Positions 159 through 18,299 of a stretch of DNA of 64,000 nt are shown here, one piece after another. The first letter of the stretch is position 1; each line of letters opens with the position of its first letter. The notes below the pieces were generated by a model. That model made no database searches and was not told where the DNA came from. It worked only from the letters and a program-made list of their open reading frames with translations. This DNA is from an uncultured Paracoccaceae bacterium. GTDB taxonomy: Bacteria; Pseudomonadota; Alphaproteobacteria; Rhodobacterales; Rhodobacteraceae. The stretch covers positions 124,001-188,000 of the forward strand of contig CANLSM010000003.1 in NCBI GenBank assembly GCA_947493745.1, given 5' to 3'. Made by a program: the position numbers and the translations under genes.

Positions 159-1547
159 GTGGCTTCGATCAAGCCTTCGCCTGCCGGTTTCCCGGTGGAG
201 GTCGAAACGCTCATCATCGGGGCAGGCGCCTGTGGTCTGGTCGCGGCTCTGAGTGCACAGGAGGCAGGGCAGCAGGTGCTGGTCCTTGAACGTGATGCCT
301 ATCCTTCCGGATCAACGGCGCTTTCGGCCGGGCTGATCCCGGCCGCCGGGACCGCGGCGCAGGCGGCTGTGGGGATTTCCGACGATCCGGTGCTTTTTGC
401 CGCCGATATTCAGGCGAAGGCGCAGCATCAGAACGATCCAGAGCTGGTTGACCTGATGGCGCGAGAGGCCGCACCGGTGATCGACTGGTTGAGCGACCGG
501 CACGGGCTCCCATTCTCGGTCGTTGCGGATTTCGACTACCCCGGCCACTCGCGGCGTCGGATGCACGGGCTGCCGACCCGCTCCGGCCGGGAGTTGGTAG
601 ATGCCTTGCGCGGCAGGGCCGAGACCCTCGACATTGATATTCTCTGCGATGCGACTGTCACCACGCTTTTTGCGGATGACGGCGAGATCACCGGGGCAGG
701 CCTTGCCCGCCCGGACGGCACAACCGAGCAGATCGGGTGCGACCGTTTGATCCTCGCCTGCAACGGCTTTGGCGGCGACCGTGAGAAGGTACGCATGCAC
801 ATGCCGCAGATCGATCGCGCCCTCTGGTTCGGACATGATGGAAACAAGGGCGATGCGCTGGACTGGGGGGCTGCGCTGGGCGCACAGACCCGGCATCTGG
901 GGGCCTATCAGGGCCATGGGAATGTCGCCCATCCGCACGGGGTACTGATCACATGGGCGGTCATCACGGAAGGCGGCATTCAGGTCAATTGCGACGGGCA
1001 GCGGTTCTGGGACGAGAGCCAGGGCTATTCGGAGGCTGCGCAGGCCGTGCTGGCTCAGCCCGGTGGCGTTGCCTTTGCGATTTTCGATGCGCGTATCGCC
1101 GGGATCGCGCGTCAGTTTCAGGACTTCCGCGATGCCGAAGGGCAGGGGGCGATCAGGACCGCTGATACGATCCCGGGGCTTGCGCAGGAACTTGGGTTGC
1201 CGGAGCTTGCCCTGCGTGAAGCGGTCGAAAACCGTCCGCAAGCCGGAGCGGACGCATTCGGTCGGCGGTTCGATCATCCGGCCCTGAGCGCGCCGTTTTG
1301 CGGTGTCGGGGTCACGGGGGCCCTCTTTCACACGCAGGGCGGGCTTGTCGTCGATCAAGACGCCCGCGTGCTGGACACCCGGAACCGGCCATTCCCGAAC
1401 CTGTTTGCCGCTGGCGGGGCGGCGTGCGGTGTCTCGGGAAGGGCTGATAGCGGCTATCTCAGTGGCAATGGCCTGCTCAGCGCCGTGACGCTGGGCAGGA
1501 TCGCAGGGCGCTCATCGGCGGATCGTCAGCGAAGTGCGAACTCCTGA
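159..1547 (+). CDS. FAD-dependent oxidoreductase (fumarate reductase/KstD-type flavoprotein)
   Basis: This 462-residue flavoprotein has an N-terminal Rossmann FAD motif GAGACG at residues 21-26, followed by a basic/acidic strand end (VLVLER). A C-terminal stretch with LFAAGGAACG and GYLSGNGLLSAVTLGR is typical of the second FAD contact in the fumarate reductase/succinate dehydrogenase-like family. That family includes 3-ketosteroid dehydrogenases, tricarballylate dehydrogenase and related soluble reductases or dehydrogenases. No signal peptide is visible, so it is probably cytoplasmic. The start is GTG, 3 bases after the preceding stop. Its last 22 bases overlap the end of the convergent reductase gene. 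The substrate cannot be read from the sequence. Confidence 0.85.
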   Translation: MASIKPSPAGFPVEVETLIIGAGACGLVAALSAQEAGQQVLVLERDAYPSGSTALSAGLIPAAGTAAQAAVGISDDPVLFAADIQAKAQHQNDPELVDLMAREAAPVIDWLSDRHGLPFSVVADFDYPGHSRRRMHGLPTRSGRELVDALRGRAETLDIDILCDATVTTLFADDGEITGAGLARPDGTTEQIGCDRLILACNGFGGDREKVRMHMPQIDRALWFGHDGNKGDALDWGAALGAQTRHLGAYQGHGNVAHPHGVLITWAVITEGGIQVNCDGQRFWDESQGYSEAAQAVLAQPGGVAFAIFDARIAGIARQFQDFRDAEGQGAIRTADTIPGLAQELGLPELALREAVENRPQAGADAFGRRFDHPALSAPFCGVGVTGALFHTQGGLVVDQDARVLDTRNRPFPNLFAAGGAACGVSGRADSGYLSGNGLLSAVTLGRIAGRSSADRQRSANS

Positions 1548-2185: not shown

Positions 2186-3055
2186 TCATGGCAATCGCAG
2201 GTTCCGATCCGGGCGGGACTGGACCGAAAGTGCGGCGAGGATGACCAGGATCGAACCCGCAACGAATGGCAGATCAACCCGTTCGTCGAAGACGATGTAC
2301 CCCACCGAGGCCGATAGGATGAGTGACGTGTAGCCCAGCACTGACAGCACGCCCGCCTCGCCCCAGAAATGCGCCCGCAGAAAGCAGAATTGCGCCGATT
2401 GGGCAAAGATACCGATGGCCAGAAGCGGAAGCGCGTCAGTGGCTTGGACCGGCTGCCATGTGGCGATGGCAAAGGGGGCGAGTATCAGGCTGAGACCGCC
2501 TGTGTAGAAGCCCATCAGAACGATGCTTGGGGCTGCGCGCAGCCGACGGGTGACGATCACGGCGGCAGAGCCTGTGGCGACAACCCCCAGCAGGATCAAG
2601 ACATTCCAGGAGACATTCACGGACCATGGATTTATTGCAATCAGGATGCCCGCGAAGGCGATTGCCGCCGCGATCCAGCGCCCTATCCCGATGAACTCGG
2701 ACATAAAGACCGCCGCCATCATCATCGTCAGGATCGGGCGGGTGAAGTTGACGGCCGTGAAAAGCGCAAACGGGATGCGGGCGAGGACAAAGAAGCTGCC
2801 CAGAAGGGTGATCGCCGAGAGCGCGACCCGGAGGAGATGAAACCGCAGATCAGGGATATCTCGGAACATCGCCTTGGACCGCCAGATCCACGGCGAGATG
2901 ACGACAAGGCCCACGACTGCGCGTAGAAACACCAGTTGAGTTGCCGGATAATCCAGCCCCATCGCCTTGACGATGGAGAGGGCCCAGATGTTGAGTGACA
3001 TGTCGGCAAGAAGCCACAGGCTGCCCGTCAGGTTATTGCGCGGCCGGTCGCTCAC
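2186..3055 (-). CDS. DMT-superfamily transporter with two EamA domains
   Basis: A 289-residue, very hydrophobic protein with about ten transmembrane segments arranged as two EamA repeats, the normal length for EamA exporters/permeases of metabolites. The start is GTG and overlaps the stop of the PIG-L gene as GTGA, so it is translationally coupled to it. It is the third gene of the leftward ROK operon (ROK, PIG-L deacetylase, transporter). A role in moving a substrate or product of that pathway is an inference from position only. Confidence 0.85.
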   Translation of the reverse strand: MSDRPRNNLTGSLWLLADMSLNIWALSIVKAMGLDYPATQLVFLRAVVGLVVISPWIWRSKAMFRDIPDLRFHLLRVALSAITLLGSFFVLARIPFALFTAVNFTRPILTMMMAAVFMSEFIGIGRWIAAAIAFAGILIAINPWSVNVSWNVLILLGVVATGSAAVIVTRRLRAAPSIVLMGFYTGGLSLILAPFAIATWQPVQATDALPLLAIGIFAQSAQFCFLRAHFWGEAGVLSVLGYTSLILSASVGYIVFDERVDLPFVAGSILVILAALSVQSRPDRNLRLP

Positions 3056-5421
3056 ACGGGCTTTGCGATCAGGTTGGCCATGAGGCGGAACGCACCGGGC
3101 ACCAGTTTTTCCATCTGGTGATGCAGGATCAGCGAGGTGTGGACATGCTGTCCGCGACCAATATCGGCGGCCAGAAGCGCGCCGTAATGCGGCGCCTCGT
3201 CCGGGTCGGCCATCGCCAGAAGGGGGGTGTAGGCATCATCCCACGCCTTGGCGAAATAGAGCCCGCGTTCCTTGTGCCACCCGGCCCAGTCAGCATTGTC
3301 GATCCGGTTCGGTGCGCAGAGGATCGGATGGTCGGGCAGAAGATGATCGACCTTCGCGGTCTCATCCGTCACCCGCCAGCGCAAGGATGGCTGGCCGATC
3401 TCAAGGCGTCTCGGCGGGGTCATGTCAGGGTCCCAGTTGTCCCAGGGCCGGTGATAGAGCGTGACCAGACGCCCCCCGGCCTCGACCCAGCGATGCAGAC
3501 GCGGCGCTGCGTCTTTCAGACCGGCTCTGAACCGGAATGCGAAGATGCCGACAATGATCGTATCGAACTGCGCCAGCGTGTCCTCGCTTTGCAACTGGGT
3601 ATCCGAAAGCACGGTGACATCCGCACCAAGAGCACTCAGCCAGTCATTGACCCGGTCATTTCCGCCACCAACATAGCCGACGCGCAGATCGGGAAGCCGG
3701 GCTTCGAGTACCCGGATCCTGACCTCTGCCTTCGCGGTGCTGAACGTTGCGTCCGTATGGGGATGCTCGATGCGGCGGATCGTTTTTGCTGGCTGGCCTT
3801 CAAGACGCACCGGAAGGTGATAGAGGCCATCCTCGACGTTTTTCGGTGGGGTGACCGTGAACGTTCGACCATTCCGGTCTGCCCGCCATCCTGCCGGCAG
3901 GTCGAGTGATGGCGCCGCATCAGACGGGTGCAGATCGCTCAGGGTGACGTCGAAGCTGCGTGTGTCGGTCGCGCGGTTGACCACGACGCCGGACGGTGCG
4001 ACAGAAACCGTGTGCGACGGCATCGCCAGCGGCGGCACGACAAAGGGCAGGTATGTCTCGCTGTCCGTCCCGAATGCATTGACCCGAACCGTCAGGCGGG
4101 GCTTTGGTGGCCGGTTGGGATCGTAGCTGGCCCGGTAGGCGTCGTGAAGATCGGCCTCGGGCGCAAGGTGGATCGTGTCACCTTCGGTCTGCCATCCGTT
4201 TGGCAGGTCAAGACCGGTCTTCAGCGAATGTGCCACGCCCGACCGCGTCTCAGTGGTAACCTTGAGGCTTCCGCCTGGGCGAACCCAGATGTCCGAGGGA
4301 TTAGCAAATGCCTCCACGCCCAGACCGATGCGGATGACACGGGCGAGTTGCCCTGCCTTCTCTTCCAGCCTGTGCCGGACCATTGGCTGTGCGGGGTCGG
4401 GACAATCGTTGATTGCCTGACGGATCATTTCAAGCGCCTCGGTTGCAAGTCTTGCGCAGCCCCCGGTATCCGGGAAGGCATCACGCGTGGCCTGAAGTCG
4501 TTGATCGGCGGCGCGCAGCACCTTTTCAATAGGGTGGGCTTCGGGAATATCGGCAAGCCCGGCGATTGTTGCCGACAGACCTGAGCGGAGGTGCAAATCC
4601 GGCCTGTCCACATGGCTCTGGGCCAGATGCAGCGGCCAGTCCCGCTCCGTTCCTGCCGGAACCCAATGTCCCATGGCCTGTGTCCGGTGGAAGGCGCGGG
4701 ACTGCTGGCCGATATGCTCATAGCTCCACCCCGAGACCGGGTCGCAGCCCTTCGCCTCGACCGTCAGTGTCGCGGGTGGCGGCGGCAGGTCATCATCATA
4801 GGCCTGACCGGCCCCGGACCACGCAGGAAGGTAGAGCTTGGCAACCTGCCAAGGCGGCAGCGTGCAGTCAGCAAAGGCCGGGTCGGCGGCAAGATGTATG
4901 ACACGGTGAGCGGCCTCTGTCATTGCCCGGTGGTGGCCGTGCTGGCCGGGAATATCTAGAAATGTGGGGCAGATGATATCCGGCTTTTCGGTTCGGATGA
5001 TCTCGACGAAACGCGCCAACGTCCGGTCCTCGCCCCATTTGTCCAGCGTCTCCGTCCCGCTTTTGGAAAACCCGAAATCAAAGATCGTGTCCGCGGGGCT
5101 TTCCGACAGCCAGTAAAGCCGCATGTCGAGGATGTCGGCAGCGCGCTCCATTTCCGCTGTTCTCAGCGCGCCCAGATCCTCAGTCATCTCGGTTCCGATG
5201 TCGTTCTGACCGCCCTCTCCGCGCGTCGAGCATGCATAGGACAGGCTGAACCCGTCGCGCAGACCGAGGGCGGCGAGCATTGGCGATGTCTCGTCATCGG
5301 GATGGGCCCCGGTGTTCATGAAGCGGATCGTCGATTGCAGAGGCTGCAGGGCCCGCCAGAGTTGGAGGATGCGCGGTGCTGTCCGTTCCGCCTCGATCCG
5401 GCGTTGATCGAAGGTTGTCAT
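3052..5421 (-). CDS. PIG-L family deacetylase with long C-terminal extension
   Basis: A 789-residue protein. Residues 30-270 form a PIG-L/LmbE deacetylase domain with the zinc motif AHPDDE at 39-44 and the second metal/catalytic segment GQHGHH near residue 160. Such enzymes remove N-acetyl groups from GlcNAc-type sugars and related conjugates. The remaining ~500 residues are not part of the usual ~250-residue family core. A middle region looks beta-rich (residues ~380-560), and the last ~200 residues (from LRVGYVGGGNDRV) read like a ThuA/glutamine-amidotransferase-like fold. The ATG start overlaps the ROK stop as ATGA. There is no signal peptide, so it acts in the cytoplasm. Substrate is inferred to be an N-acylated compound brought in by the neighbouring ABC importer. 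Confidence 0.85.
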   Translation of the reverse strand: MTTFDQRRIEAERTAPRILQLWRALQPLQSTIRFMNTGAHPDDETSPMLAALGLRDGFSLSYACSTRGEGGQNDIGTEMTEDLGALRTAEMERAADILDMRLYWLSESPADTIFDFGFSKSGTETLDKWGEDRTLARFVEIIRTEKPDIICPTFLDIPGQHGHHRAMTEAAHRVIHLAADPAFADCTLPPWQVAKLYLPAWSGAGQAYDDDLPPPPATLTVEAKGCDPVSGWSYEHIGQQSRAFHRTQAMGHWVPAGTERDWPLHLAQSHVDRPDLHLRSGLSATIAGLADIPEAHPIEKVLRAADQRLQATRDAFPDTGGCARLATEALEMIRQAINDCPDPAQPMVRHRLEEKAGQLARVIRIGLGVEAFANPSDIWVRPGGSLKVTTETRSGVAHSLKTGLDLPNGWQTEGDTIHLAPEADLHDAYRASYDPNRPPKPRLTVRVNAFGTDSETYLPFVVPPLAMPSHTVSVAPSGVVVNRATDTRSFDVTLSDLHPSDAAPSLDLPAGWRADRNGRTFTVTPPKNVEDGLYHLPVRLEGQPAKTIRRIEHPHTDATFSTAKAEVRIRVLEARLPDLRVGYVGGGNDRVNDWLSALGADVTVLSDTQLQSEDTLAQFDTIIVGIFAFRFRAGLKDAAPRLHRWVEAGGRLVTLYHRPWDNWDPDMTPPRRLEIGQPSLRWRVTDETAKVDHLLPDHPILCAPNRIDNADWAGWHKERGLYFAKAWDDAYTPLLAMADPDEAPHYGALLAADIGRGQHVHTSLILHHQMEKLVPGAFRLMANLIAKPV

Positions 5422-6593
5422 GATTGCACCGCGATCTGGGGGGTGAATGTATGGCTGATCACAAGGGTTGCCGCACCCAGCGTTGCGGTCATCCGTCCCG
5501 AGCCGCCGCGGATCAGTCTTGGCTGAAGACGGTTCGCACGGTTTGCGACACTGCGCTCCGGCAGGGCGGCGACCGCAATCATCTGGTCGAGGATCGGCTC
5601 CGGCATCGCCCCTCCCAGGATCACGACCTCGGGATCAAAGAGGTTCTCTATGATGGCCACCGCATTGCCAAGCGGCACGGCGGTGGCCCTGATCCAGTCG
5701 ATCAGCTGCGGGCAGGACTGGGCGTGCAGCGCCTCCAGATCCTCGCTGCTGGCTGCGTGGATCCCGGCATCGCGCAGATGTGTTTGGGCCGACAGACGGC
5801 TGACCGCGTTTTCCAGCATGATAGGACCCTGGTTCCCCTGAACCATCACATGTCCGATCTCGCCTGCATTGCCGAAGGCGCCGCGCATCAATCGACCGTT
5901 CGAGACCAGACCCAGCCCGAGGCCGGTGCCGAAATAGAGATAGGCATAAGCCTTCAGCCGCTGGGCAACACCGGTGAAATGTTCCGACATGGCCGCCGCA
6001 TTGGCGTCGTTTTCCAGATGAACGGAAAGGCCGAGCGCATCCTCGAAGAGGGCCTTCGCGTCGATGTCCTGCCAGTCCTGCAATTCGCTCCCGCGATTGG
6101 ACAGACCTGTTGCGCCAAAGGGTCCCGGCATCACGACGCCCGCTCCGAGGGTCCGGTTCGCCGGAATGCCGGACTGATCGAGTGCGGTTTGCTGCAACAC
6201 ACGGATGCGTTCCCGGACATGATCGGGGGAGGTATTCTCGAGACCCATTCGCCGCGAGAACACGCATTGACCGTCGAGACCGAGAAGGGCGACGAATAGC
6301 GCATCGGGCCGCACCTCGAAACCGAAAGCGTAGCCGCCCTTTGGATTGAGAGCGTATTGCACGGCTGGAAGCCCGCGTCCCGATGACAGCCGACCCCGTT
6401 CCAGAAGCAGCCCGTCGGTCTGAAGGTCTGCGATGATGTTCGAGACGGCCTGCGTCGAAAGCCCTGAAAACTTGGCAATCTCAGCGCGGCCGATTTGCCC
6501 CGCCGTGCGCACGAAATCCAGCACGACCTGTCGGTTGTGCGACCGGGATCTGCCAGCATTGGCGCCCGCGACAATTTCCAGTTTCGGCTTCAT
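5418..6593 (-). CDS. ROK-family transcriptional regulator
   Basis: A 391-residue repressor-type ROK protein. Residues ~25-62 form a winged helix-turn-helix (GRAEIAKFSGLSTQAVSNII), and the rest is a ROK sugar-kinase fold with the phosphate-loop-like segment YLYFGTGLGLGL and GEIGHV. The usual ROK zinc motif CxCGxxGCxE after GEIGH is missing: the region reads GNQGPIMLENAVS with no cysteines. It therefore probably senses a sugar-like ligand without structural zinc. It is divergent from the sugar ABC operon, with a perfect 11-bp inverted repeat just upstream of its own ATG. It is first of a three-gene leftward operon with PIG-L and the DMT transporter. Confidence 0.9.
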   Translation of the reverse strand: MKPKLEIVAGANAGRSRSHNRQVVLDFVRTAGQIGRAEIAKFSGLSTQAVSNIIADLQTDGLLLERGRLSSGRGLPAVQYALNPKGGYAFGFEVRPDALFVALLGLDGQCVFSRRMGLENTSPDHVRERIRVLQQTALDQSGIPANRTLGAGVVMPGPFGATGLSNRGSELQDWQDIDAKALFEDALGLSVHLENDANAAAMSEHFTGVAQRLKAYAYLYFGTGLGLGLVSNGRLMRGAFGNAGEIGHVMVQGNQGPIMLENAVSRLSAQTHLRDAGIHAASSEDLEALHAQSCPQLIDWIRATAVPLGNAVAIIENLFDPEVVILGGAMPEPILDQMIAVAALPERSVANRANRLQPRLIRGGSGRMTATLGAATLVISHTFTPQIAVQS

Positions 6594-6600
6594 ATCCCGG

Positions 6601-6644
6601 CATTAACTCAACTAACTTGATAGTTCAACTTACTTGAGTTAATG
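6601..6644. promoter_or_regulatory. Palindromic operator candidate for the ROK regulator
   Basis: CATTAACTCAA at 6601-6611 is repeated exactly as its reverse complement TTGAGTTAATG at 6634-6644. Between and across the arms lie two near-identical direct copies, AACTAACTTGA (6610-6620) and AACTTACTTGA (6627-6637). The element begins 7 bases before the ROK start and precedes the ABC substrate-binding protein gene by about 75 bases. That is the expected place for a shared operator controlling both divergent operons. Confidence 0.7.
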
Positions 6645-6720
6645 CTTGCTGAGAAAACCACGAAACGCGGGGAAACCGCGCTTGCCAGTCTTGCCAACAG
6701 TTGCTCAGGGAGTTTGAAAC

Positions 6721-7974
6721 ATGACATCGGTGAAAGGTTGGGCACTGGGTGCCGCAACAGGTATTGCTGCTATGCTGGGGTCGGCTGCTCACGCGGTCGA
6801 GATCGAATACTGGCAGTATTTCTTTGACGCCCGCGTAAGTGCGATGGAGCAGCTTATCGAGAATTTCGAGGCTGCGAACCCGGATATCACGGTGAAGATG
6901 ACCCACTTCCCATATGCGGATTATCGCACCAAGGTGGCCGCCGCCATCCCGGCGGGCGAGGGGCCGGATGTGGTCCAGCTTTTCTATGGCTGGCTGAACG
7001 ACTATGTCGAGGCGGACCTGATCCAGCCACTGCCGACCGATGCCTTTCCTGTCGACAGGATCGAGACCGAGTTCTTCCCCATGGTCGGCGCGATGCGGCG
7101 CGGCGATGCCTATATGGCGCTGCCCACGGCCGTGCGCTCGCTGGCGCTGTTCTATAACACACGGCTCTTCGACGATGCCGGGATCGAAAGCCCGCCTGCT
7201 ACGCTCGATGAGCTTGTCGAAGTGGCCAAGAAACTGACGCAGGTCGATGGCGCGGGCAACATCACGCAAGTCGGCATCACCACCGGGATGACGGCGCAGG
7301 ATCACCATTGGTTCCGCGAGGTCCTGATCCGCCAGTTCGGGGGAGAGCCCTATACCGACGGCTACAAGACCGTGAACTACAACACCGATGCCGGAATGAA
7401 GGCTCTGGAATTCTATGCGGGGCTGGAGAAGACCCATAATGTGACCGCCTCGGGCTTCATGGATGAACCACAGGCGGCCTTCAAGGCCGGACGCGCTGGA
7501 ATGCATATCGACGGTTCGTTCCGCATCGGCTCGCTCAACAAGACACGCGGCCTGAAATGGGGCGTGGCGGAATTGCCCGCCGGTCCTGATGGCACCAAAT
7601 CGAACTACTCATCCTATTGGGTGAACGCGATCACCACCAAGGCGGAAGGCGAGAAGTACGACGCGGCGGTCAAGTTCATGGAATATGTCACCTCTGACGA
7701 GGCGATGCAGATCTGGCTCGATGTGGTGGGCGAGTTGCCCGCCAAGCCGTCCGTTGGCATGACCGAAGCCAATGCCAATGACGAGGTCTTCGGCCCGTTC
7801 ATCCGGGGGCTTGAATACGCCAACACCACTGTGTTCGCCAACGAGTCCGGCCAGCGCCAGATCCTGGTGGATATGGTTGCGCGCACGGACATCGAAGGCC
7901 AGCCGCTTGCTGAAAGTCTGGCTGTGGCGGCAGAGGCCGAACAAAAGCTGCTTGATGAGTATTACGCTGAGTAA
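6721..7974 (+). CDS. ABC transporter substrate-binding protein, sugar type (family 1)
   Basis: A 417-residue periplasmic binding protein with a classic signal peptide (hydrophobic core GAATGIAAMLGSA, cleavage after AHA near residue 22). The mature part starts with a beta strand (VEIEYWQYF) and has the family-1 pattern AAIPAGEGPDVVQLF, ALPTAVRSLALFYN and VKFMEYVTSDEAMQIW, as in UgpB/MalE-like sugar or glycerophosphodiester binders. It leads the rightward operon with two permeases and, further on, an ATPase. An intercistronic hairpin follows immediately, as often seen after abundant binding-protein genes. Ligand unknown. Confidence 0.9.
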   Translation: MTSVKGWALGAATGIAAMLGSAAHAVEIEYWQYFFDARVSAMEQLIENFEAANPDITVKMTHFPYADYRTKVAAAIPAGEGPDVVQLFYGWLNDYVEADLIQPLPTDAFPVDRIETEFFPMVGAMRRGDAYMALPTAVRSLALFYNTRLFDDAGIESPPATLDELVEVAKKLTQVDGAGNITQVGITTGMTAQDHHWFREVLIRQFGGEPYTDGYKTVNYNTDAGMKALEFYAGLEKTHNVTASGFMDEPQAAFKAGRAGMHIDGSFRIGSLNKTRGLKWGVAELPAGPDGTKSNYSSYWVNAITTKAEGEKYDAAVKFMEYVTSDEAMQIWLDVVGELPAKPSVGMTEANANDEVFGPFIRGLEYANTTVFANESGQRQILVDMVARTDIEGQPLAESLAVAAEAEQKLLDEYYAE

Positions 7975-7983
7975 GGGCGCACA

Positions 7984-8010
7984 GCACCCCGGCTGAGCCA
8001 GCCGGGGTGC
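7984..8010 (+). terminator. Intercistronic GC hairpin after the binding-protein gene
   Basis: A perfect 11-bp stem (GCACCCCGGCT, 7984-7994, with its complement at 8000-8010) closes a 5-base loop. It starts 10 bases after the binding-protein stop and 27 bases before the permease start. There is no T-run, so it is more likely a transcript-stabilising or partial-attenuation hairpin that raises binding-protein levels over the permeases than a full terminator. Confidence 0.7.
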
Positions 8011-8037
8011 CATATCCTCAGCCCACAGGGACCGGCG

Positions 8038-8925
8038 ATGTACCGCAACCTTTCCATCAAACAAAAGCAGATCGTCTGGGCCTGGGCCTTTCTGGCGCTG
8101 CCGGTGCTGTTTTATGGAGTGATCCGGTTCTATCCCACGGGCAACGCGATCCTGATCAGCTTTCAGGACTGGAATCTGCTGGGCGAGCGGAACTGGTCCG
8201 GGTTGGAAAACTACATCAAACTCTGGAACGACCCGGTCTTCTGGAAAGTCTTCAAGAACACATTCCTCTACCTGCTGCTCGGCACGCCCATCAGCCTGGT
8301 GATCTCGTTTGTGATCGCCTACCACCTTGATCAGCTGCGCTTCATGCACGGGTTTCTCAGGATGCTCTACTTCCTGCCGTTCATGACCTCGGCGGTGGCC
8401 ATGGCCTGGGTCTGGCGCTGGTTCTATCAACCCGTGCCGATCGGGCTCTTCAATAATTTCCTGGCCTCGCTCGGCATTCCGCAGATCGAGTTCCTGAACT
8501 CTACCACCAACGCATTGCCCTCGGTGCTGGCCCCTGCGGTCTGGGCCGGACTGGGATTTCAGGTGATTATTTTCATGGCGGGCCTGCGCGCCATCCCGCG
8601 CAGTTACTACGAGGCTGCCCGGATCGATGGGGTCTCTACCTGGACGGTGCTCTCGGAGATCACGCTGCCGCTTCTCAAACCCACGATTGTCTTCATCGTC
8701 GTATTCTCCTCCATCGGGTTCCTGCGCATCTTCGATCATGTCTTCAACATGACGACCAACAATCCCGGCGGGCCTTTGAATGCGACCAAACCGCTGGTGC
8801 TGATGATCTACGACACCGCCTTCACAGGCTATGACATGGGCTATGCTGCCGCGCAGACCGTCGTGCTGTTCGTGATCCTGCTGGTGGTCTCGCTGATCCA
8901 GCTGCGCATCCTGAGGGACCGCTAG
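8038..8925 (+). CDS. Sugar ABC transporter permease (UgpA/MalF-like)
   Basis: A 295-residue inner-membrane permease with six predicted transmembrane helices. It carries the cytoplasmic coupling (EAA) loop EAARIDGVSTWTVLSEITLPLLKP, starting near residue 192, that docks on the ATPase. Length and motif match the first permease of CUT1-type carbohydrate importers. It is followed directly (no spacer) by the second permease gene. Confidence 0.9.
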   Translation: MYRNLSIKQKQIVWAWAFLALPVLFYGVIRFYPTGNAILISFQDWNLLGERNWSGLENYIKLWNDPVFWKVFKNTFLYLLLGTPISLVISFVIAYHLDQLRFMHGFLRMLYFLPFMTSAVAMAWVWRWFYQPVPIGLFNNFLASLGIPQIEFLNSTTNALPSVLAPAVWAGLGFQVIIFMAGLRAIPRSYYEAARIDGVSTWTVLSEITLPLLKPTIVFIVVFSSIGFLRIFDHVFNMTTNNPGGPLNATKPLVLMIYDTAFTGYDMGYAAAQTVVLFVILLVVSLIQLRILRDR

Positions 8926-9804
8926 ATGGCCGTTGTCGAGGAAATCCGCGCGTCCTCCGAGGCGCTGCTCAGCGCCAAGGCACCCCGCAAACCGGCGAAC
9001 ATGGGCCAGATCATCCGTTGGCTGCTGCTTTTCGGCGGCGGCATCCTGATGGTGATGCCGATCGCCTACATGATCTCGACCTCGCTGAAATGGCCGCACG
9101 AGGTCTACAACGTCAACCTGATCCCGGTTGAGCCGACCATCGAGAACTACACCTTCGTTCTGGAGGATGGGCGGTTCTACGGCTGGTTCATCAACTCGAT
9201 CATCATCGCTACGATCACGACGATCTGCAATCTGCTGTTTGACAGTCTGGTCGGCTACACGCTTTGCAAATTCCGCTTTCCGGGCCGCTACATCATCTTC
9301 ATCGCGATCCTCTCGACGCTGATGATCCCCACCGAGATGCTGGTGATCCCGTGGTATCTGATGAGCCAGCAGTTCGGCTGGCTCGACACCTATTGGGGTA
9401 TCATGTTCCCCGGCCTCATGACGGCCTTCGGCACCTTCCTGATGAAGCAGTTCTTCGAGACCGTGCCTGATGATTTCATCGAGGCCGCGCGGATCGACGG
9501 GCTGAACGAGTTGCAGATCTGGTGGACGGTGGCGATGCCGTTGGTCAAACCGGCGCTCGCCGCGCTGGCGATCTTCGTCTTCCTGGGCAACTGGACGGCG
9601 TTCATCTGGCCGCTGATCGTGACCAACTCGGTGGAGATGTACACGCTGCCCGTCGGCCTTTCGGGCTTCGGGGATGAGGCCGACGTGGCCTGGGAGTTGA
9701 TCATGACCGGGGCCGCGATCTCGACCATTCCCACGCTGATCGTCTTCCTGATCTTCCAGCGATTTATCATTCGAGGCGTCGTTATGGCAGGGCTGAAAGG
9801 ATGA
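8926..9804 (+). CDS. Carbohydrate ABC transporter permease (UgpE/MalG-like)
   Basis: A 292-residue permease with six membrane helices and the EAA loop EAARIDGLNELQIWWTVAMP. It pairs with the preceding permease to form the channel of a CUT1-type importer. Its ATG is the base after the previous stop, and its own TGA overlaps the next gene's start (ATGA), indicating strict co-translation. Confidence 0.9.
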   Translation: MAVVEEIRASSEALLSAKAPRKPANMGQIIRWLLLFGGGILMVMPIAYMISTSLKWPHEVYNVNLIPVEPTIENYTFVLEDGRFYGWFINSIIIATITTICNLLFDSLVGYTLCKFRFPGRYIIFIAILSTLMIPTEMLVIPWYLMSQQFGWLDTYWGIMFPGLMTAFGTFLMKQFFETVPDDFIEAARIDGLNELQIWWTVAMPLVKPALAALAIFVFLGNWTAFIWPLIVTNSVEMYTLPVGLSGFGDEADVAWELIMTGAAISTIPTLIVFLIFQRFIIRGVVMAGLKG

Positions 9805-10256
9805 GCACATCAAAGCCCCTAGTTGCGACCGACCGGCTGGATCACGTCCATCTTTATGTCACGGACCGCCCTGCGGCTGTCGAGTGGTACAACCGGGTTC
9901 TGGGACTGGTACCCTATGGCCGCTGGCGGAATGAGGACCCCGCCCCGGACCATCCGGTTTTTCTGGCAGCAAAGGGTCAGCCCCATTCGGTTTCGCTTTT
10001 CACAGGCCCGCGCCCGGAAGGTGGCGACCGGACGGTTGCCTTTCATGCCAGTGGCCCCGCGTTCATCGTGTTTGCCGAGGCCCTGCCGGTCGATCTCGTC
10101 CTTGATCGCGATCGGGAGGTTCCGCTGCGCCCTTCGCATCATCATGACTTTGGCGAGGCAATCACTTTCAACTTTCTCGATCCGGCAGGGAACCATCTGG
10201 AACTTGTGACCTACGATGCGGCTGACGTCCGAGCCGCGCTGAAGGGGATGTCATGA
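9801..10256 (+). CDS. VOC-superfamily (glyoxalase/dioxygenase-fold) protein
   Basis: A 151-residue protein with paired beta-alpha-beta-beta-beta modules: LDHVHLYVTDRPAAVEWYNRVLGL at the start and FNFLDPAGNHLELVTYD near the end. It has likely metal ligands His (LDHVHLY), His (HHHDFGEAI) and Glu (NHLELV). The family covers glyoxalases, epimerases, ring-cleaving dioxygenases and lyase-like enzymes. It lies inside the ABC operon with 4-base overlaps on both sides, so it is presumably an enzyme of the same catabolic pathway. The exact reaction cannot be read. Confidence 0.8.
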   Translation: MSTSKPLVATDRLDHVHLYVTDRPAAVEWYNRVLGLVPYGRWRNEDPAPDHPVFLAAKGQPHSVSLFTGPRPEGGDRTVAFHASGPAFIVFAEALPVDLVLDRDREVPLRPSHHHDFGEAITFNFLDPAGNHLELVTYDAADVRAALKGMS

Positions 10257-11737
10257 CGGACACATCCACCTTCCCCGACCCGACCTACAAGGAAACGGTC
10301 CTCGCGCCGCTCTTTGAAGGCGTGAAGACGCATTATGCAGCCCATATGGGGGCGATCAATCAGGCGCATCTGGTGATGCTGGCGGAGACCGGCATCCTGA
10401 CTGCGGCTCAGGCCCGGCAGATCGCGGCGGCCTTGCGGTCCATCGAGGAGGGGACCGATATCGACAGTCTCACCTATACCGGCGAGCATGAGGATTACTT
10501 CTTCTATGTCGAGGCAGAGTTGAAGGCGCGATTGGGCGATCTGGGGGGGATGCTGCACACCGCGCGGTCGCGCAATGACATGGATCACACGCTCTTCAAG
10601 ATGGCCCTGCGCAGCCGCTCGGACGCCATGCTGGGCCAGATCCTTAGACTGACCGGCAAGCTGATCGACAAGGCGAAGGCCGAGCGGGACACCCTGATCG
10701 TCGCCTACACCCATGGCCAGCCTGCTCAGCCGACCACCTTCGGGCACTACCTTGCCGCAATGATCGAGGTGTTGCTGCGTGATGCTGAACGGCTCGGGGC
10801 TGCTGTCGAGGCGCTTGATCACTGCCCGATGGGGGCCGCCGCGATCACCACGTCAGGCTTTCCTATTGACCGGGGCCGGGTGGCAGAGTTGCTGGGGTTC
10901 AGGGAGCCGTTGCTGAACTCCTATGGCTGCATTGCCTCGGTGGATTATGTCACCGGGCTCTACTCGGCGCTGAAACTTGTTTTCGTCCATCTTGGCCGTG
11001 TGGTGCAGGACATGGCCTTTTGGTCGGCCTTCGAGGTCGGACAGCTTTATGTCCCCAATGCGCTGGTGCAGATCAGCTCGATCATGCCGCAGAAACGCAA
11101 TCCGGTGCCGATTGAGCATATGCGCCATCTGGCGAGTGTCACGAGCGGACATTGCGACACCATCATCAATACGATGCACAATACGCCCTTCACGGATATG
11201 AATGACAGTGAGGGCGAGGTGCAGCAGGCAGGTTATGCCGCTTTTGAGAGTGGTGGCCGGATGCTCGCCTTGCTGGGTGCCTTCCTGCCCGCCTGTTCGA
11301 TCAACGAGGCCCGCGTGCGCGAAAACGCAGATCGGGCCTGCATCACGATCACCGAGCTTGCCGATACGCTTGTGCGCGACGAGGGCCTGAGCTTCCGGCA
11401 GGCCCATGAGATCGCCGCCAGGACCGCGCGCGCAGTGGTCGGCGAGGGACAGTCGCTCGCCCGAGGCCACTCCCATTTCAAGCAGGCTTTCGAGGCGGAA
11501 ACCGGTCGGGCAAGCGCGCTGGGTGCTGCGGATTTTGCCACTGCGGTCTCACCCGAGACATTCGTAACGCGCAGGGACCGCCTGGGAGGTCCCGCGCCTG
11601 CCGCGATGGACGCCGCGCTGACGCTCTACCGGCAAAATCTGGAAGACCTGAAGTCCGTGACCGCCCGCAAGGCAGCCCGGCTGGCAGAGGCGCAGACGCT
11701 TCTTGATCGTGCCTTTGATGCATTGGAGACGACCTGA
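10253..11737 (+). CDS. Argininosuccinate-lyase-type / fumarase superfamily lyase
   Basis: A 494-residue enzyme of the fumarase/aspartase superfamily. It shows TARSRNDMDHT at ~103-113, YTHGQPAQPT with catalytic-type His154, and the signature loop SSIMPQKRNP at 275-284, all in the order seen in argininosuccinate lyases. It sits inside a sugar-type ABC operon rather than with arg genes. It therefore more likely cleaves a C-N bond in an imported N-substituted aspartate/succinate-like compound (as EDDS lyase does) than making arginine. This substrate idea is inference. It starts by overlapping the VOC gene stop and ends 3 bases before the ATPase gene. Confidence 0.8.
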   Translation: MTDTSTFPDPTYKETVLAPLFEGVKTHYAAHMGAINQAHLVMLAETGILTAAQARQIAAALRSIEEGTDIDSLTYTGEHEDYFFYVEAELKARLGDLGGMLHTARSRNDMDHTLFKMALRSRSDAMLGQILRLTGKLIDKAKAERDTLIVAYTHGQPAQPTTFGHYLAAMIEVLLRDAERLGAAVEALDHCPMGAAAITTSGFPIDRGRVAELLGFREPLLNSYGCIASVDYVTGLYSALKLVFVHLGRVVQDMAFWSAFEVGQLYVPNALVQISSIMPQKRNPVPIEHMRHLASVTSGHCDTIINTMHNTPFTDMNDSEGEVQQAGYAAFESGGRMLALLGAFLPACSINEARVRENADRACITITELADTLVRDEGLSFRQAHEIAARTARAVVGEGQSLARGHSHFKQAFEAETGRASALGAADFATAVSPETFVTRRDRLGGPAPAAMDAALTLYRQNLEDLKSVTARKAARLAEAQTLLDRAFDALETT

Positions 11738-11740
11738 CCC

Positions 11741-12793
11741 ATGGCAACTCTCTCGCTCAGACAACTCACCAAGACCTATGAAAAGACCGAGGTGCTGCAT
11801 GGCATCGATCTGTCCATCGAGGATGGGGAGTTCGTGGTCTTTGTCGGTCCTTCGGGCTGTGGCAAGTCCACCACCTTGCGGTTGATCGCAGGACTGGAGG
11901 AGGCAACGTCCGGGGATATCGAGATCGCGGGCCGGGTGGTCAACAACCTGGAGCCCAAAGAGCGGGACATCGCCATGGTGTTCCAGAATTACGCGATCTA
12001 TCCGCATATGACCGTGCGCAAGAATATCGGCTTCGGACTGCGGACCGCGAAGATGAGCCGGGCCGACAAGGAGGCACGCATCGACGAGGTCGCGGCCATC
12101 CTCGATATGACCGAGCTTCTGTCGCGCAAGCCGAGCCAGCTTTCGGGCGGTCAGCGGCAGCGGGTGGCCATCGGGCGCGCCATGGTGCGTGACCCGGCCG
12201 TGTTCCTCTTTGATGAGCCTCTCTCGAACCTCGACGCGCAATTGCGCACGCAGATGCGTCTTGAGATCAAGAAGCTGCACCAGCGGGTCGGCAACACCAT
12301 CGTCTTCGTGACCCATGATCAGGTCGAGGCGATGACCATGGCCGACCGGATCGTGATCATGAAGGATGGTCACATCCAGCAGGTCGGCACGCCCGACGAG
12401 GTTTACCATGCGCCTGCCAATACCTTTGTTGCTCAGTTCATCGGTGCTCCATCGATGAACATGCTGCAAGGCGTTGGCGCGGAAGGGGGCATCAGCCTGC
12501 CTTCCGGCATCCAGTTCCGTGGTCCGTTAGCCCCCAACGGCGTACCTCTGGTTCTGGGTGTGCGCCCTGATGACCTGCACCTCGACGACGGAGAACCGCT
12601 CGTCGAGGGCCAGGTTGCAGTGCGCGAACCGCTGGGTCACGAGACCCTGATCTATGTCACGACACAGGGCGGCGAGATCATTGCGAAAGCGGATGGTCGC
12701 AGGCCGCCCGATGTGGGTGAGACCGTGCGCCTTCGCGCCCGACCGGACAGGGTGCACATTTTCGATGCGGCAACCGGGCAGGCGATCCGGTGA
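11741..12793 (+). CDS. ABC transporter ATP-binding protein (UgpC/MsmK/MalK type)
   Basis: A 350-residue ATPase with Walker A GPSGCGKST (36-44), signature LSGGQRQR, Walker B VFLFDEPLSNLD and the switch His in VTHDQVEAMT. It is followed by a C-terminal TOBE/regulatory beta domain of about 110 residues, typical of CUT1 sugar importers. It energises the two permeases encoded upstream, although two enzyme genes separate it from them. Its stop overlaps the GTG start of the PfkB kinase (GTGA). Confidence 0.92.
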   Translation: MATLSLRQLTKTYEKTEVLHGIDLSIEDGEFVVFVGPSGCGKSTTLRLIAGLEEATSGDIEIAGRVVNNLEPKERDIAMVFQNYAIYPHMTVRKNIGFGLRTAKMSRADKEARIDEVAAILDMTELLSRKPSQLSGGQRQRVAIGRAMVRDPAVFLFDEPLSNLDAQLRTQMRLEIKKLHQRVGNTIVFVTHDQVEAMTMADRIVIMKDGHIQQVGTPDEVYHAPANTFVAQFIGAPSMNMLQGVGAEGGISLPSGIQFRGPLAPNGVPLVLGVRPDDLHLDDGEPLVEGQVAVREPLGHETLIYVTTQGGEIIAKADGRRPPDVGETVRLRARPDRVHIFDAATGQAIR

Positions 12794-13704
12794 ACGATGC
12801 AACAACCCCATATACGATCCTCTGCGTGGGGCGGGTCTATTGCGACCTCGTCTTCACCGGCACCCCCAGGATGCCGACCATGGGCACCGAGGTCTTAGCG
12901 GAAGATGTGAGTGTCCATGCAGGCGGCGGAGCATTTATCACGGCCGCCTATCTTCAGGCGCTCGGACGCCATACCTATCTGGCCGCCAGTCTCGGTTCTC
13001 CGCCCTTTGACTGGATCGTCGCCGACGAGATTGCGATGCTCGGCGTGGATCAGGCCTTGTGCGCGTCCCAGCCCCAGTCAGCCGGTGTTCAGTTGACAGT
13101 TGCCATAGCGGGCGAGGGCGACCGCGCCTTTCTGACCCGCCGGACCCGTGCGCCTGTCCCGATCCCGACCGTCGAGCAGATCCGCAAACGCCGTGTCCGG
13201 CACATGCATATCGGCGAGTTGCAGACCCTTGTCGAGCATCCGGAATTGCTTGATCGCGCACGGCAATGCGGTCTCAGCACTTCACTCGATTGCGGCTGGG
13301 AGGATGTCCTGCCGCCGGGTGCCGTTGATCTGGTCGCCGAGATCGACGTCTTTCTGCCCAATGAACCGGAGGCGGAGCGTTTGCTGGCAAATGGGGCGCG
13401 GCATCCACTCGCGCCGATGACCGTGATCAAGCGAGGGGCCGACGGCGCGGATGTGCTGGTCGATGGCACCCGGATCTCGCGTCCTGCGACCAGGGTCGAG
13501 GCGGTGGATACAACCGGTGCAGGCGATGCGTTCAACAGCGGGTTTCTGGACGAGTGGTTGCGCGGCTCGCCGCCTGAGACATGTCTTGAAATGGGTAATG
13601 CCTGCGGTGCGGCCGCGATTGCCGGTCGTGGCGGCTGCGGCGGGCTGAAGGACGTGCATGAGTTGCTCGCCGTCCGCCAACGCCGGGAGATGGCCAGTGA
13701 CTGA
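12790..13704 (+). CDS. PfkB-family carbohydrate kinase
   Basis: A 304-residue ribokinase-fold kinase. N-terminal VGRVYCDLVFTG and GGGAFITAAYLQALG form the substrate-binding Gly-rich region. The C-terminal DTTGAGDAFNSGF is the PfkB signature 2, with the catalytic Asp and anion hole. It probably phosphorylates the sugar or sugar-like part released from the imported compound. The GTG start overlaps the ATPase stop. Confidence 0.88.
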   Translation: MNDATTPYTILCVGRVYCDLVFTGTPRMPTMGTEVLAEDVSVHAGGGAFITAAYLQALGRHTYLAASLGSPPFDWIVADEIAMLGVDQALCASQPQSAGVQLTVAIAGEGDRAFLTRRTRAPVPIPTVEQIRKRRVRHMHIGELQTLVEHPELLDRARQCGLSTSLDCGWEDVLPPGAVDLVAEIDVFLPNEPEAERLLANGARHPLAPMTVIKRGADGADVLVDGTRISRPATRVEAVDTTGAGDAFNSGFLDEWLRGSPPETCLEMGNACGAAAIAGRGGCGGLKDVHELLAVRQRREMASD

Positions 13705-14227
13705 ACCGATGACACTTGAAGGCTTTGTCTCTGCCGCGCGTGCCGCAGCCGGTGGGCCTGACCCGCTGGAGGCGTCGATTGCGCTGATGATGAACGCGCT
13801 CACCAACCCGTCACGGATCGCATCCGACGGTGCGGACTTCGTGGAGAACGAGGTGCTGCTTTTCGAGGATGAGACCGTCTCGATCTGGCACGAGCGTTTT
13901 CTGCCCGACGAGATACTGCCCGCTCATGACCACCAGATGCCCGCGATCCTCGGCGTCTATGACGGGCAGGAGCGCAACCGGCTGTTTCGCCAGGTTGATG
14001 GAACGATTGCCTCCTGCGGCGAGCTTGTTCTGGCGGCAGGCGAGTTCCACGTCTTCGGGCCCGAGGATATCCACACCGTGCAGGCGATGAACGATGCCCC
14101 CAGCCACGGGCTGCATATCTATCTCGGCGCGCTGACCCGGGTGGAGCGCTCTCTCTTCGATGTGGAGGCCGGTGCCCGGATGCCGATGACGGAGGCCGAT
14201 TTCGTCCGGCTTACCCGCAAACTCTGA
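13697..14227 (+). CDS. Cupin/cysteine-dioxygenase-like metal-binding protein
   Basis: I place the start at the GTG at 13697 (176 residues), which has GGGAGA six bases upstream and overlaps the kinase stop by 8 bases. An ATG at 13709 is the alternative. The centre reads as a double-stranded beta helix with likely metal ligands in PAHDHQMPAIL, a tyrosine-glycine turn (VYDGQERNR) and a late His in HGLHIYLG. This resembles cysteine-dioxygenase-like cupins. It is the last gene of the ABC operon, and its function in the pathway is unknown. Confidence 0.65.
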   Translation: MTEPMTLEGFVSAARAAAGGPDPLEASIALMMNALTNPSRIASDGADFVENEVLLFEDETVSIWHERFLPDEILPAHDHQMPAILGVYDGQERNRLFRQVDGTIASCGELVLAAGEFHVFGPEDIHTVQAMNDAPSHGLHIYLGALTRVERSLFDVEAGARMPMTEADFVRLTRKL

Positions 14228-14230
14228 TCC

Positions 14231-15721
14231 TCAGACGCGGCTCAGGTAGTTGTCCCAAAACCCGTTTCTGAACGCCAGATCCGGATCATACCGACGTTTC
14301 AGAGTGACAAACTCCTCCGCGCGTGGATAGGCGGTGCGGAACTGCTCCACTGTCGCATGAGGGCGGTAGGGCAGATAATAGGTGCCGCCAAGGTCCAGTA
14401 CCCGCTCGATGAGTGCGTGGGTCATTCTGGCCATGTCGCGCTCGGCCCGGTGGGAGCGTTCCTGCGAAAACAGCATCACGGCCGCAATCCGGTTGGAGGG
14501 CGCATAGCTCAACACGCTCTCCGGGTCGCGGCGAACATAGCGCAGCGTGATGTTGAGAAGCTCCTGATAGGAAGACGGGATCACCTCCTGACAGGCGGCG
14601 ACAAACGCGGCGAACCGATCAGGCGGCACGAAATACTCATGAAGGATGTCGGTCCGCAGCGGGTCGCGATCGGCGAGACTTGCTGCCGGTTCATTCAGAA
14701 GCGCGTTTCGCGTCGTTGGCCCGCCCCGCAGTCGCGGGCCGAGAGTGCGCTCCATCCACCATCGCGAATGCTTCATGTGGTCGGAGTCAAGCTGGGCGCG
14801 GAACAACTGACGTTCCAGTTTGCGGCTGAGGCCGCCACTTGAGGCCTTTGGCCGGTCGGTCTGATCCTCGGCCGGACGATAGCTCACGAGCACTGCATCA
14901 TCGAGAAACCGGTCGCGCGAGATGTCCATGCGCCCATAGGCCATCTGCACCTCGCCATCGCCCTCGGCCATCCGGGCAAAGGCCGCGCCCAACTCGCCGG
15001 GGGGGACGGTTTCATAGCGCGGTTCCAGAACGGTGTCAGGCACCATTTTCAGCTTCAGTTCGGTGATGATGCCCAGAAGGCCATACCCGCCCATTGCGCC
15101 GTAAAACAGATCCCTGTTCTGCGCGCGGGAGCAAATCACCGACTTGCCGCTGGCAAGCATCAGAGTGATTTCCTCGACCGTGGAGCCGCATCCCGAATAC
15201 GGAACCGGCCAGCCATGCGCATTCACGCTGAAGCTGCTGGCGACACCGAAATCGTTGTTGGACTGCATCACGGCGGGCGAGAAGCTGCTGGGCGTGAGGG
15301 CTGCGATGACCCGATGCCAGTTGGCGCCTGCTGAAACCCGGTAGGTCCTGCTGTCTCGGTCGATTTCCAGCCAATCCTGACGGAATGTCAGCGCCAGACC
15401 GTCGCGGGGCAGGGAATGACCGCCTTGTGAGTGACGGGCCCGGCTTGCAGTCACTGGCAAAGACTTCTCGCGCGCACCCAGCAGAAGGCTTTGCAGGCGC
15501 TTGACCTCCCGCCCTGCAATACGCTTGTCCAGTGTAACATGCGAGGCGACCGGCGTCGGTGACAACAGGCTGGCATCATTGAGGACCAGCGGCCCGGAGA
15601 CGTCAGCGGGCCCGGAGGGCCGCCCAAACGGGATCGGATCGGTATGAAAACGGTGAACGGCGTAGCCGCCCAGACCGGCACCACCCATGAACAGAAGGGC
15701 GCGCCTAGAAAATTTCTTCAT
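14231..15721 (-). CDS. Secreted FAD-linked oxidase (FAD_binding_4, lactone-oxidase/DprE1-like)
   Basis: A 496-residue protein starting with a Tat-type signal (SRRALLFMGGAGLGGYAV). A PCMH/VAO FAD-binding domain follows (residues ~75-240), with HSQGGHSLPRDGLALTF and CGSTVEEITLMLASG. It then has YGAMGGYGLLGIITELKL, and a C-terminal substrate domain ending in RAEEFVTLKRRYDPDLAFRNG. The pattern matches sugar-lactone oxidases (gulonolactone/arabinonolactone) and decaprenyl-phosphoribose oxidase relatives. It is probably periplasmic with bound FAD. It is convergent with the ABC operon, with only 3 bases between the stops. Confidence 0.8.
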   Translation of the reverse strand: MKKFSRRALLFMGGAGLGGYAVHRFHTDPIPFGRPSGPADVSGPLVLNDASLLSPTPVASHVTLDKRIAGREVKRLQSLLLGAREKSLPVTASRARHSQGGHSLPRDGLALTFRQDWLEIDRDSRTYRVSAGANWHRVIAALTPSSFSPAVMQSNNDFGVASSFSVNAHGWPVPYSGCGSTVEEITLMLASGKSVICSRAQNRDLFYGAMGGYGLLGIITELKLKMVPDTVLEPRYETVPPGELGAAFARMAEGDGEVQMAYGRMDISRDRFLDDAVLVSYRPAEDQTDRPKASSGGLSRKLERQLFRAQLDSDHMKHSRWWMERTLGPRLRGGPTTRNALLNEPAASLADRDPLRTDILHEYFVPPDRFAAFVAACQEVIPSSYQELLNITLRYVRRDPESVLSYAPSNRIAAVMLFSQERSHRAERDMARMTHALIERVLDLGGTYYLPYRPHATVEQFRTAYPRAEEFVTLKRRYDPDLAFRNGFWDNYLSRV

Positions 15722-17769: not shown

Positions 17770-18299
17770 ACACCAGGGAAGTCGTCGTCTCAGTCACCTT
17801 TCTGGAAATGACCGAGCGGCCTAGCTATCCACGTCCCTCTGTGCCCGGCAGCAAACCGACCGCACTGATCGCGGCGGAGGACCCGCCTGAATGGTGGTTT
17901 CTCGCGCTCTACAACGCGGTCGGCAAGCCCTATCACTGGACCGAGTGGAACGAGGCCAGCGACCATGATCTGACAGCTTTCGTCAAGGACCCGAAGGTCA
18001 CGATCTTCACGCTGATGTACTGCGGATGGCCCGCCGGATTTTTCATGCTCGACACCCGGCTCGGCGGCATCTGCGATCTCTCCTATTTCGGGCTGGTGCA
18101 GGAGGCGATCGGCCTCGGGCTTGGCAAGTATCTGCTGCAGACGGCGATCCATGCCGCCTGGGACCAGCCGGGGGTGGAAAAGGTGACGGTGAACACCTGC
18201 ACGCTCGATCATCCGCGCGCCCTGCCGCTTTATCAGAAGATGGGGTTTGTGCCCGTCAACCGACAGGACTATAGAGCAACCATTCCCGCAACGGACTGA
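17766..18299 (+). CDS. GNAT-family N-acetyltransferase
   Basis: A 177-residue acetyltransferase. The acetyl-CoA loop lies in LGLGKYLLQTAIHAAW, preceded by a central beta strand (GICDLSYFGLV) and followed by VNTCTLDHPRALPLYQKMGFVPV, the usual C-terminal GNAT pattern. The start is the ATG at 17766, which overlaps the sseA stop (ATGA). An upstream in-frame codon at 17730 lies inside sseA and is unlikely. The acetyl acceptor is unknown. Confidence 0.82.
   Translation: MNTREVVVSVTFLEMTERPSYPRPSVPGSKPTALIAAEDPPEWWFLALYNAVGKPYHWTEWNEASDHDLTAFVKDPKVTIFTLMYCGWPAGFFMLDTRLGGICDLSYFGLVQEAIGLGLGKYLLQTAIHAAWDQPGVEKVTVNTCTLDHPRALPLYQKMGFVPVNRQDYRATIPATD

Follow-up and report, generated by a model that had tools for sequence, protein, structure and literature searches.

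ArgH, the argininosuccinate lyase, and the EDDS lyase of Chelativorans BNC1 (PDB 6g3d), an enzyme of the ArgH family that links fumarate with amines or separates them, are among the closest described relatives of a lyase encoded in a gene cluster that we analyzed in an uncultured Paracoccaceae bacterium (assembly GCA_947493745.1, contig CANLSM010000003.1, positions 124,001 to 188,000 of the forward strand; this stretch of 64,000 nucleotides is referred to below as the window). Enzymes of this lyase class typically split O-succino or N-succino groups and release fumarate, and 2SL acts on S-succino groups (PMC9706529). There, 2SL is described as a lyase class I enzyme of the yxe loci, import-and-breakdown loci that also have a deacetylase; unlike the window cluster, they act on a cysteine thioether and include an acetyltransferase, and the description names neither a sugar kinase nor NagB for them (PMC9706529). 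A second protein of the cluster belongs with BshB and Bca in the LmbE/PIG-L family, whose members identified by 2014 have substrates with N-acetylglucosamine cores, or N-acylglucosamine cores in the case of Mca and Bca (PMC4101496). The known BshB and Bca proteins serve biosynthesis or detoxification; the window protein has extra domains and scores far under the curated cut-offs of BshB2 and Mca. Finally, operons for N-acetylglucosamine (GlcNAc) and N-acetylmuramic acid (MurNAc), with NagB-II, NagA, and MurQ, share with the cluster their importer class and its proposed end product, glucosamine-6-phosphate, but the operon of this kind in the same genome has no lyase or PIG-L gene among the open reading frames (ORFs) read.

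Our data point, with about an even chance of being right, to a pathway for the uptake and breakdown of an N-acyl-glucosamine with an O- or N-linked succino (1,2-dicarboxyethyl) group. Since PIG-L proteins act on N-acyl-glucosamine and the lyase class releases fumarate, the substrate would join these two parts. A CUT1-type ABC importer would take up the conjugate, the PIG-L protein would strip the N-acyl group, the lyase would eliminate fumarate and leave glucosamine, and the PfkB kinase, or in some relatives a ROK-family protein, would produce glucosamine-6-phosphate, the last three steps taking place in this or another order. NagB or NagB-II would then convert glucosamine-6-phosphate to fructose-6-phosphate and ammonia; in this genome, the NagB-II would be supplied by a separate upstream operon. 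The ROK regulator probably controls the cluster through a 40-bp operator. What the analysis observed is the gene content and its conservation, the single occurrence of the operator-like site, the replacement of ArgH motifs, and the association with deaminase genes; from these we infer all reactions, the regulation, and the substrate. The genes form two divergent, tightly packed rows, ROK–PIG-L–EamA leftward and a substrate-binding protein (SBP) gene–permease–permease–VOC–lyase–ATPase–PfkB–cupin rightward. Since neighbors abut (8925/8926) or overlap by 4 bases (3052-3055, 5418-5421, 9801-9804, 10253-10256, and 12790-12793), the arrangement looks like two divergent operons, with the following features in window coordinates:

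2186..3055, minus strand: EamA/DMT-family transporter, probably encoded in the leftward operon; 4-base overlap with the PIG-L stop (Pfam EamA, 3.3e-17)
3052..5421, minus strand: PIG-L/LmbE-type protein of 789 amino acids, proposed N-acyl-glucosamine deacylase (Pfam PIG-L, 9.8e-16)
5418..6593, minus strand: ROK-family transcriptional regulator (Pfam ROK, 4.4e-32; weak winged-helix matches under their cut-offs)
6603..6642, no strand: 40-bp double palindrome, predicted and probable ROK operator between the divergent operons (site search)
6721..7974, plus strand: SBP of the CUT1-type sugar ABC importer (Pfam SBP_bac_8, 2.1e-40)
8038..8925, plus strand: ABC permease A, UgpA type (family profiles)
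8926..9804, plus strand: ABC permease B, UgpE type (family profiles)
9801..10256, plus strand: VOC-superfamily protein, optional (Pfam Glyoxalase, 1.7e-7)
10253..11737, plus strand: fumarase/aspartase-superfamily lyase, ArgH-like (Lyase_1, 2.4e-41; ASL_C2, 3e-10; TIGR00838, 302.8 bits)
11741..12793, plus strand: UgpC/MalK-type ABC ATPase (NF008653, 487 bits; cut-off 432)
12790..13704, plus strand: PfkB-family sugar kinase, proposed glucosamine kinase (Pfam PfkB, 3.7e-28)
13709..14227, plus strand: thiol-dioxygenase-fold cupin, optional (structure and sequence matches)

Every gene named in an initial annotation of this DNA is present, i.e., those for the ROK regulator, the sugar importer, the PIG-L protein, the lyase, the VOC protein, the PfkB kinase, and the cupin. 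The set is larger than the interval given there, whose start at 5418 leaves out the very PIG-L gene that it names; the EamA gene and the probable product, glucosamine-6-phosphate, had also been overlooked. The cupin probably starts at 13709 rather than 13658, judging from its two homologues in loci L024 and L030.

The lyase has been taken for an arginine enzyme, and its score above the argH cut-off probably explains the public argH labels. Like ArgH, it has the superfamily catalytic motifs HTxRSRND, THxQxAQP (THGQPAQP), and SSIMPQK (SSIMPQKRNP), and a Lyase_1 domain carrying SSxMPxKxNP and THxQ places it in lyase class I. Two motifs found in all seven ArgH sequences aligned, YxKDxQ and K[KR]NPD, which we take to be contacts to argininosuccinate, give way to DMNDSE and KRNPV in the window lyase, which in a further departure from ArgH sits in a sugar-importer operon. 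In their stead, QKRNPV[PA]xEH and HN[TV]PF[TG]D[MI][NT]D were common to all 12 cluster lyases checked and absent from the seven ArgH sequences as well as from the paralogues of Haladaptatus and Cupriavidus; one further cluster lyase, from L118, has Y in place of F in the second motif. In addition, contig C4 of the same genome encodes another ArgH, with a far higher score against TIGR00838 (608.8 versus 302.8 bits), so that the window lyase is not the best argH match of its genome. A tree of 29 sequences separated the cluster lyases of Alphaproteobacteria and Deinococcus from ArgH (support 95/90). Given the stronger ArgH elsewhere in the genome and the replaced ArgH motifs, we conclude that the window lyase is not the arginine enzyme. 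We propose that it releases fumarate from the imported conjugate.

The association of these genes is far beyond chance. A lyase scan with one genome per species yielded 69 related loci, in which a gene was called present if tblastn matched it at >60 bits no farther than 11 kb from the lyase, genes lost at a contig end being scored as absent. The SBP gene accompanied the lyase in 65 of these loci, permease A in 67, permease B in 68, the ATPase in 67, PIG-L in 64, ROK in 62, PfkB in 57, and EamA in 47. The complete eight-gene core was found in 53, and some of the remaining loci lie on short contigs. VOC and cupin occurred in only 7 and 2 of the 69 loci, respectively, and both are therefore accessory. 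Across the order to which the window belongs, the lyase was detected in 24 of 196 sampled genomes (E <= 1e-90); loci L145-L158 partly overlap the 69, and their counts were not added. The initial statement that these enzymes are rarely seen together thus fails for the core.

The cluster also extends beyond the Alphaproteobacteria. A search of named plasmids returned SBP orthologues (E <= 1e-40) in 36 records, 27 of them alphaproteobacterial, 8 from Deinococcus, and 1 from Thermus. The top 27 entries of the lyase list are these very alphaproteobacterial accessions, and the lyase adjoins the SBP in seven of the eight Deinococcus records. On plasmids of D. actinosclerus, D. ficus, D. wulumuqiensis, and D. 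deserti, genes for the ROK regulator, the lyase, the SBP, two permeases, the PIG-L protein, and a carbohydrate kinase lie in an order unlike that of the window. In D. deserti these form one row, a minimal set, and the other three plasmids add a second, longer PIG-L protein. Pfam bore out the PIG-L assignment for D. ficus and D. actinosclerus, as well as that of PfkB for D. ficus, whose SBP and lyase are 44% and 34% identical to those of the window, respectively. The sequence matches of the SBP are generic sugar-binding proteins, from which its ligand is not readable. Two further observations concern individual loci: in the alphaproteobacterial L118 and L119, the PIG-L match is split into two tblastn pieces, perhaps through an alignment gap or a divergent C-terminal part, and the Terrarubrum cluster (L109, 12736-17119) is followed by a hypothetical gene, nadA, an L-aspartate oxidase gene, and nadC.

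With respect to the sugar, some relatives of the cluster carry glucosamine-6-phosphate deaminase genes. A NagB-II-type gene lies just 3' of PfkB (after PfkB and cupin in L024 and L030) in 8 of the 55 loci with enough sequence downstream to be eligible, and in seven of those eight genomes, which were searched, it is the sole match in the genome at E <= 1e-50. The NagB-II proteins of three cluster members scored 219.7, 245.8, and 313.4 bits with NF046059 as the best model for each, short of the curated cut-off of 430, and one cluster NagB-II matched the glucosamine-6-phosphate deaminase structure 8eol in the PDB at E 4.4e-51. We also considered the SIS protein as a fructoselysine-type deglycase and ruled this out, the NagB-II scores of 219.7-313.4 bits comparing with a deglycase score of 26.9 in the sole protein that matched that model. 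Among more distant relatives, the clusters of Paroceanicella, Loktanella, and Roseomonas have NagB or NagB-II together with a ROK-family protein that replaces PfkB; such a protein is paired with NagB in L107 and L111 and with NagB-II in L108. The NagB and NagB-II genes inside the operons of relatives suggest that the sugar product is probably glucosamine-6-phosphate, and we propose that PfkB acts as a glucosamine kinase.

NagB-II was also searched for genome-wide. Among the 33 genomes searched, a subset of those behind the 69 loci, 31 had a NagB-II match, and the other two have a NagB over the cut-off. Order-wide, NagB-II was found in 21 of 24 lyase-positive genomes versus 67 of 172 lyase-negative ones (Fisher p 6e-6), and without matches of <200 bits in 16 of 24 versus 53 of 172 (Fisher p 8e-4), with related genomes treated as independent in both tests. 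One of the three lyase-positive genomes that lack NagB-II, G729, has NagB inside its cluster (L146). The window genome has its NagB-II at C3:110859-111869 (family search), ~12-13 kb upstream of the window. This gene lies in a second amino-sugar operon (C3, ~105900-113000; L166), which comprises a CUT1 importer and MurQ-, kinase-, GntR-, NagB-II-, and NagA-like genes, all but NagB-II assigned by ORF reading, and which is the likely source of NagB-II for the cluster.

The PIG-L protein consists of an N-terminal PIG-L domain, a beta-sandwich middle region, and a ThuA-like C-terminus. Its metal motifs AHPDDE and HGHH are invariant in all 44 aligned sequences, i.e., the window protein and 43 homologues picked from the 54 listed. 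The AlphaFold2 model (predicted local distance difference test score, pLDDT, 90.4) gave MshB as the top Foldseek match, along with diacetylchitobiose deacetylase and the ThuA-like 1t0b, and the AHPDDE and HxxH metal motifs within a PIG-L fold argue for a PIG-L/LmbE deacylase; a search of the whole protein against PDB sequences returned no match. A GH9 protein occupies the PIG-L slot in Paroceanicella (L107); we dropped it as a clue, its CBM2, Calx-beta, and GH9 domains being those of secreted cellulases.

Regulation of the cluster is suggested by the spacer between ROK and SBP, which at 6603-6642 contains a 40-bp double palindrome, TTAACTCAA-N5-TTGATNNTTCAA-N5-TTGAGTTAA. This site is unique in the 4.03-Mb assembly at up to 3 mismatches (its reverse-strand match is the same site), and the expected number of its inner 30 letters in the window is 0.00. 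Among the 62 loci with a clear spacer, 58 kept at least 20 of the 28 defined positions, compared with a best score of 18 on one shuffle each; the consensus was derived from the same loci that were scored with it. A wider form of the operator was dropped, as among eight loci outside the 69 it was kept only in Qingshengfaniella (L159). A conserved operator-like site thus lies at the divergent promoter of the ROK gene itself. It is probably the ROK operator and the regulator probably cluster-specific; since the site is unique in the genome, the regulator is probably local and would not control the NagB-II operon through it.

Which natural compound joins the two parts of the substrate? Bacillithiol (BSH), an antioxidant, is cysteinyl-glucosamine alpha-glycosidically linked to L-malate (Cys-GlcN-malate), i.e., an O-succino glycoside whose N-acylated glucosamine (GlcN) bears the malate, and its precursors are GlcNAc-malate and GlcN-malate. 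To our knowledge, bacillithiol with these precursors is the only nameable natural product that has both parts. BSH, N-methyl-BSH, or GlcN(Ac)-malate is for us the leading concrete substrate, although a tentative one. We hold as similarly tentative a route in which the CUT1 importer would bring in BSH or N-methyl-BSH made by other bacteria, PIG-L would cut the cysteine-glucosamine amide, the ArgH-derived enzyme would act as a C-O lyase to yield glucosamine and fumarate, and the cysteine would be exported by EamA or oxidized by the cupin. The initial annotation assumed C-N cleavage; a lyase step is supported, but in our view a malate glycoside split at its C-O bond has at least the same likelihood. 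BSH derivatives are described as widespread: makers of BSH or N-methyl-BSH, reported or predicted, include Bacteroidetes, Deinococcus-Thermus, and Firmicutes along with other groups, and a measurement of N-methyl-BSH is given for Polaribacter MED152 (PMC6282198). We found no match to BshC in the window genome with a search that was positive in B. subtilis, Thermus, and Deinobacterium, BshA and BshB not having been searched; any BSH would accordingly be foreign. Exact-phrase and co-mention searches of open-licence literature returned nothing on the catabolism, degradation, breakdown, or uptake of bacillithiol, no paper pairing PIG-L with argininosuccinate lyase, and, among the matches listed, nothing on this gene set.

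Hints of a thiol come from two further proteins. By sequence, the cupin matched the mercaptosuccinate dioxygenase 8vni in the PDB at E 2e-8; its AlphaFold2 model, built on a 3-row alignment (pLDDT 83.0), has thiol dioxygenases as its best Foldseek matches (8vni, E 2.4e-12), and H73, H75, and H122 are invariant in all three sequences. The modeled fold and the three conserved histidines are consistent with membership in the thiol dioxygenase (CDO/3MDO/MSDO) superfamily and count toward a thiol substrate. EamA proteins include a cysteine exporter; the window EamA matches a general transporter model only, far under the cut-off of that model, and a role for it in exporting an end product or surplus intermediate is a guess. 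We grade both hints as weak.

Several observations weigh against the pathway that we propose. The window lyase exceeds the curated argH cut-off (302.8 versus 279.5 bits), and the tree program warns that long branches meet in the 29-row tree, which we take as support, not proof. PIG-L falls far under the curated cut-offs of BshB2 (19.9 versus 195.25 bits) and Mca (27.6 versus 277.15), and the cupin, the strongest thiol hint, occurs in just two loci. NagB-II-like genes turn up widely across the order (88 of 196 genomes, 19 of them at <200 bits and none at the curated 430 bits), and of the 31 matches in cluster genomes, one has internal stops (the genome of L003) and two more score 183-185 bits. 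Of the eight plasmid loci read first, five (Bosea, Paroceanicella, Roseomonas, Terrarubrum, and Shinella) had no PIG-L gene next to the lyase and no match elsewhere on those plasmids, so that deacylation may be unneeded or performed elsewhere. PfkB was unmatched by tblastn in some long loci (L029, L034, L037, L039, L043, and L048). Three of the seven Deinococcus lyase loci (D. psychrotolerans, KNUC1210, and D. aetherius) have the lyase and importer only, without adjoining PIG-L, ROK, or kinase genes, and the SBP occurs without an annotated lyase in the stretches viewed of Thermus oshimai and Deinococcus AJ005.

Other substrates would also accommodate much of this evidence, which fixes the parts, an N-acyl-glucosamine and a group that a lyase can eliminate, but not their linkage. 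The same steps could act on another acid ether of N-acetylglucosamine derived from a glycan or natural product, an alternative made more attractive by the amino-sugar genes (NagZ, MurR/RpiR, MurQ-like, and NagA-like) near the cluster in D. ficus, L017, L035, and the window genome. We consider it doubtful, as there is no known compound to name and nearby amino-sugar operons may mean one diet rather than one substrate. The succino group might instead be N-linked, as in the fructose-aspartate Heyns product (N-glucos-2-yl-aspartate), from which a C-N lyase similar to EDDS lyase would release glucosamine and fumarate. This would preserve the fit to NagB and NagB-II, and the best-scoring lyases of solved structure are argininosuccinate lyases and EDDS lyase (E 1.4e-52 to the window lyase), all C-N lyases; it would, however, leave PIG-L, present in 64 of the 69 loci, without a clear job. 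In addition, the substrate positions Q159, D290, and Y320 of EDDS lyase (PMC12363623) correspond to H154, V285, and about M316 in the window lyase according to a phmmer alignment with 6rx8, a chain that itself shows M at 290 and 320. On balance, an N-linked succino amino sugar seems unlikely.

Simpler or more distant explanations fare worse. The kinase, NagB-II, and PIG-L would suffice to process N-acetylglucosamine, and a lyase that exceeds the argH cut-off could be a stray ArgH paralogue without a role in the uptake of plain N-acetylglucosamine or chitobiose. This is quite improbable, given that the lyase is kept with the importer across two phyla and has shared motifs of its own, and that the genome already has an operon of the N-acetylglucosamine/MurNAc type and a stronger ArgH. 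A thiol-succino route, in which the lyase splits S-(2-succino) adducts and the cupin oxidizes the thiol, could draw on the mercaptosuccinate dioxygenase match of the cupin and on 2SL, an enzyme of the same lyase class that releases fumarate from N-acetyl-S-(2-succino)cysteine (N-acetyl-2SC) (PMC9706529). Such a route gives no role to the sugar importer, the sugar kinase, or NagB and depends on a cupin found in 2 of 69 loci, and we regard it as very improbable. Collectively, the initial interpretation is partly supported. Its modified amino sugar, subject to deacylation, lyase cleavage, and phosphorylation, gains support from the deaminase genes in the operons of relatives and from PIG-L chemistry, and its succino-type conjugate fits the lyase class.

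The cluster is flanked by genes of other families. An FAD-linked oxidase gene (window 14231-15721, minus strand), distantly DprE1-like (64.2 bits; cut-off 500), converges on the cluster end, and a flavocytochrome c/TcuA-like FAD protein (229.9 bits; cut-off 285.45) is encoded beyond the EamA end at window 159-1547 (plus strand). Farther 3' of the cluster, window 16918-20411 (plus strand) encodes a 3-mercaptopyruvate sulfurtransferase (284.9 bits versus a cut-off of 250) together with an aromatic amino acid transaminase (505.3 bits versus 377) and an ornithine-cyclodeaminase-family reductase. These proteins could serve cysteine disposal.

The lyase is present in about one of eight sampled genomes of the order, and annotations at present scatter the gene set over arginine biosynthesis, deacetylase, and sugar transport. 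Should the proposed pathway be true, the argH labels are mistaken, the breakdown of a sugar conjugate has drawn in an enzyme of the ArgH type, and bacteria cycle a compound that has so far not been recognized as a nutrient. If that compound is bacillithiol, the cluster would reveal the fate of a thiol proposed to be the most widespread in bacteria (PMC6282198).

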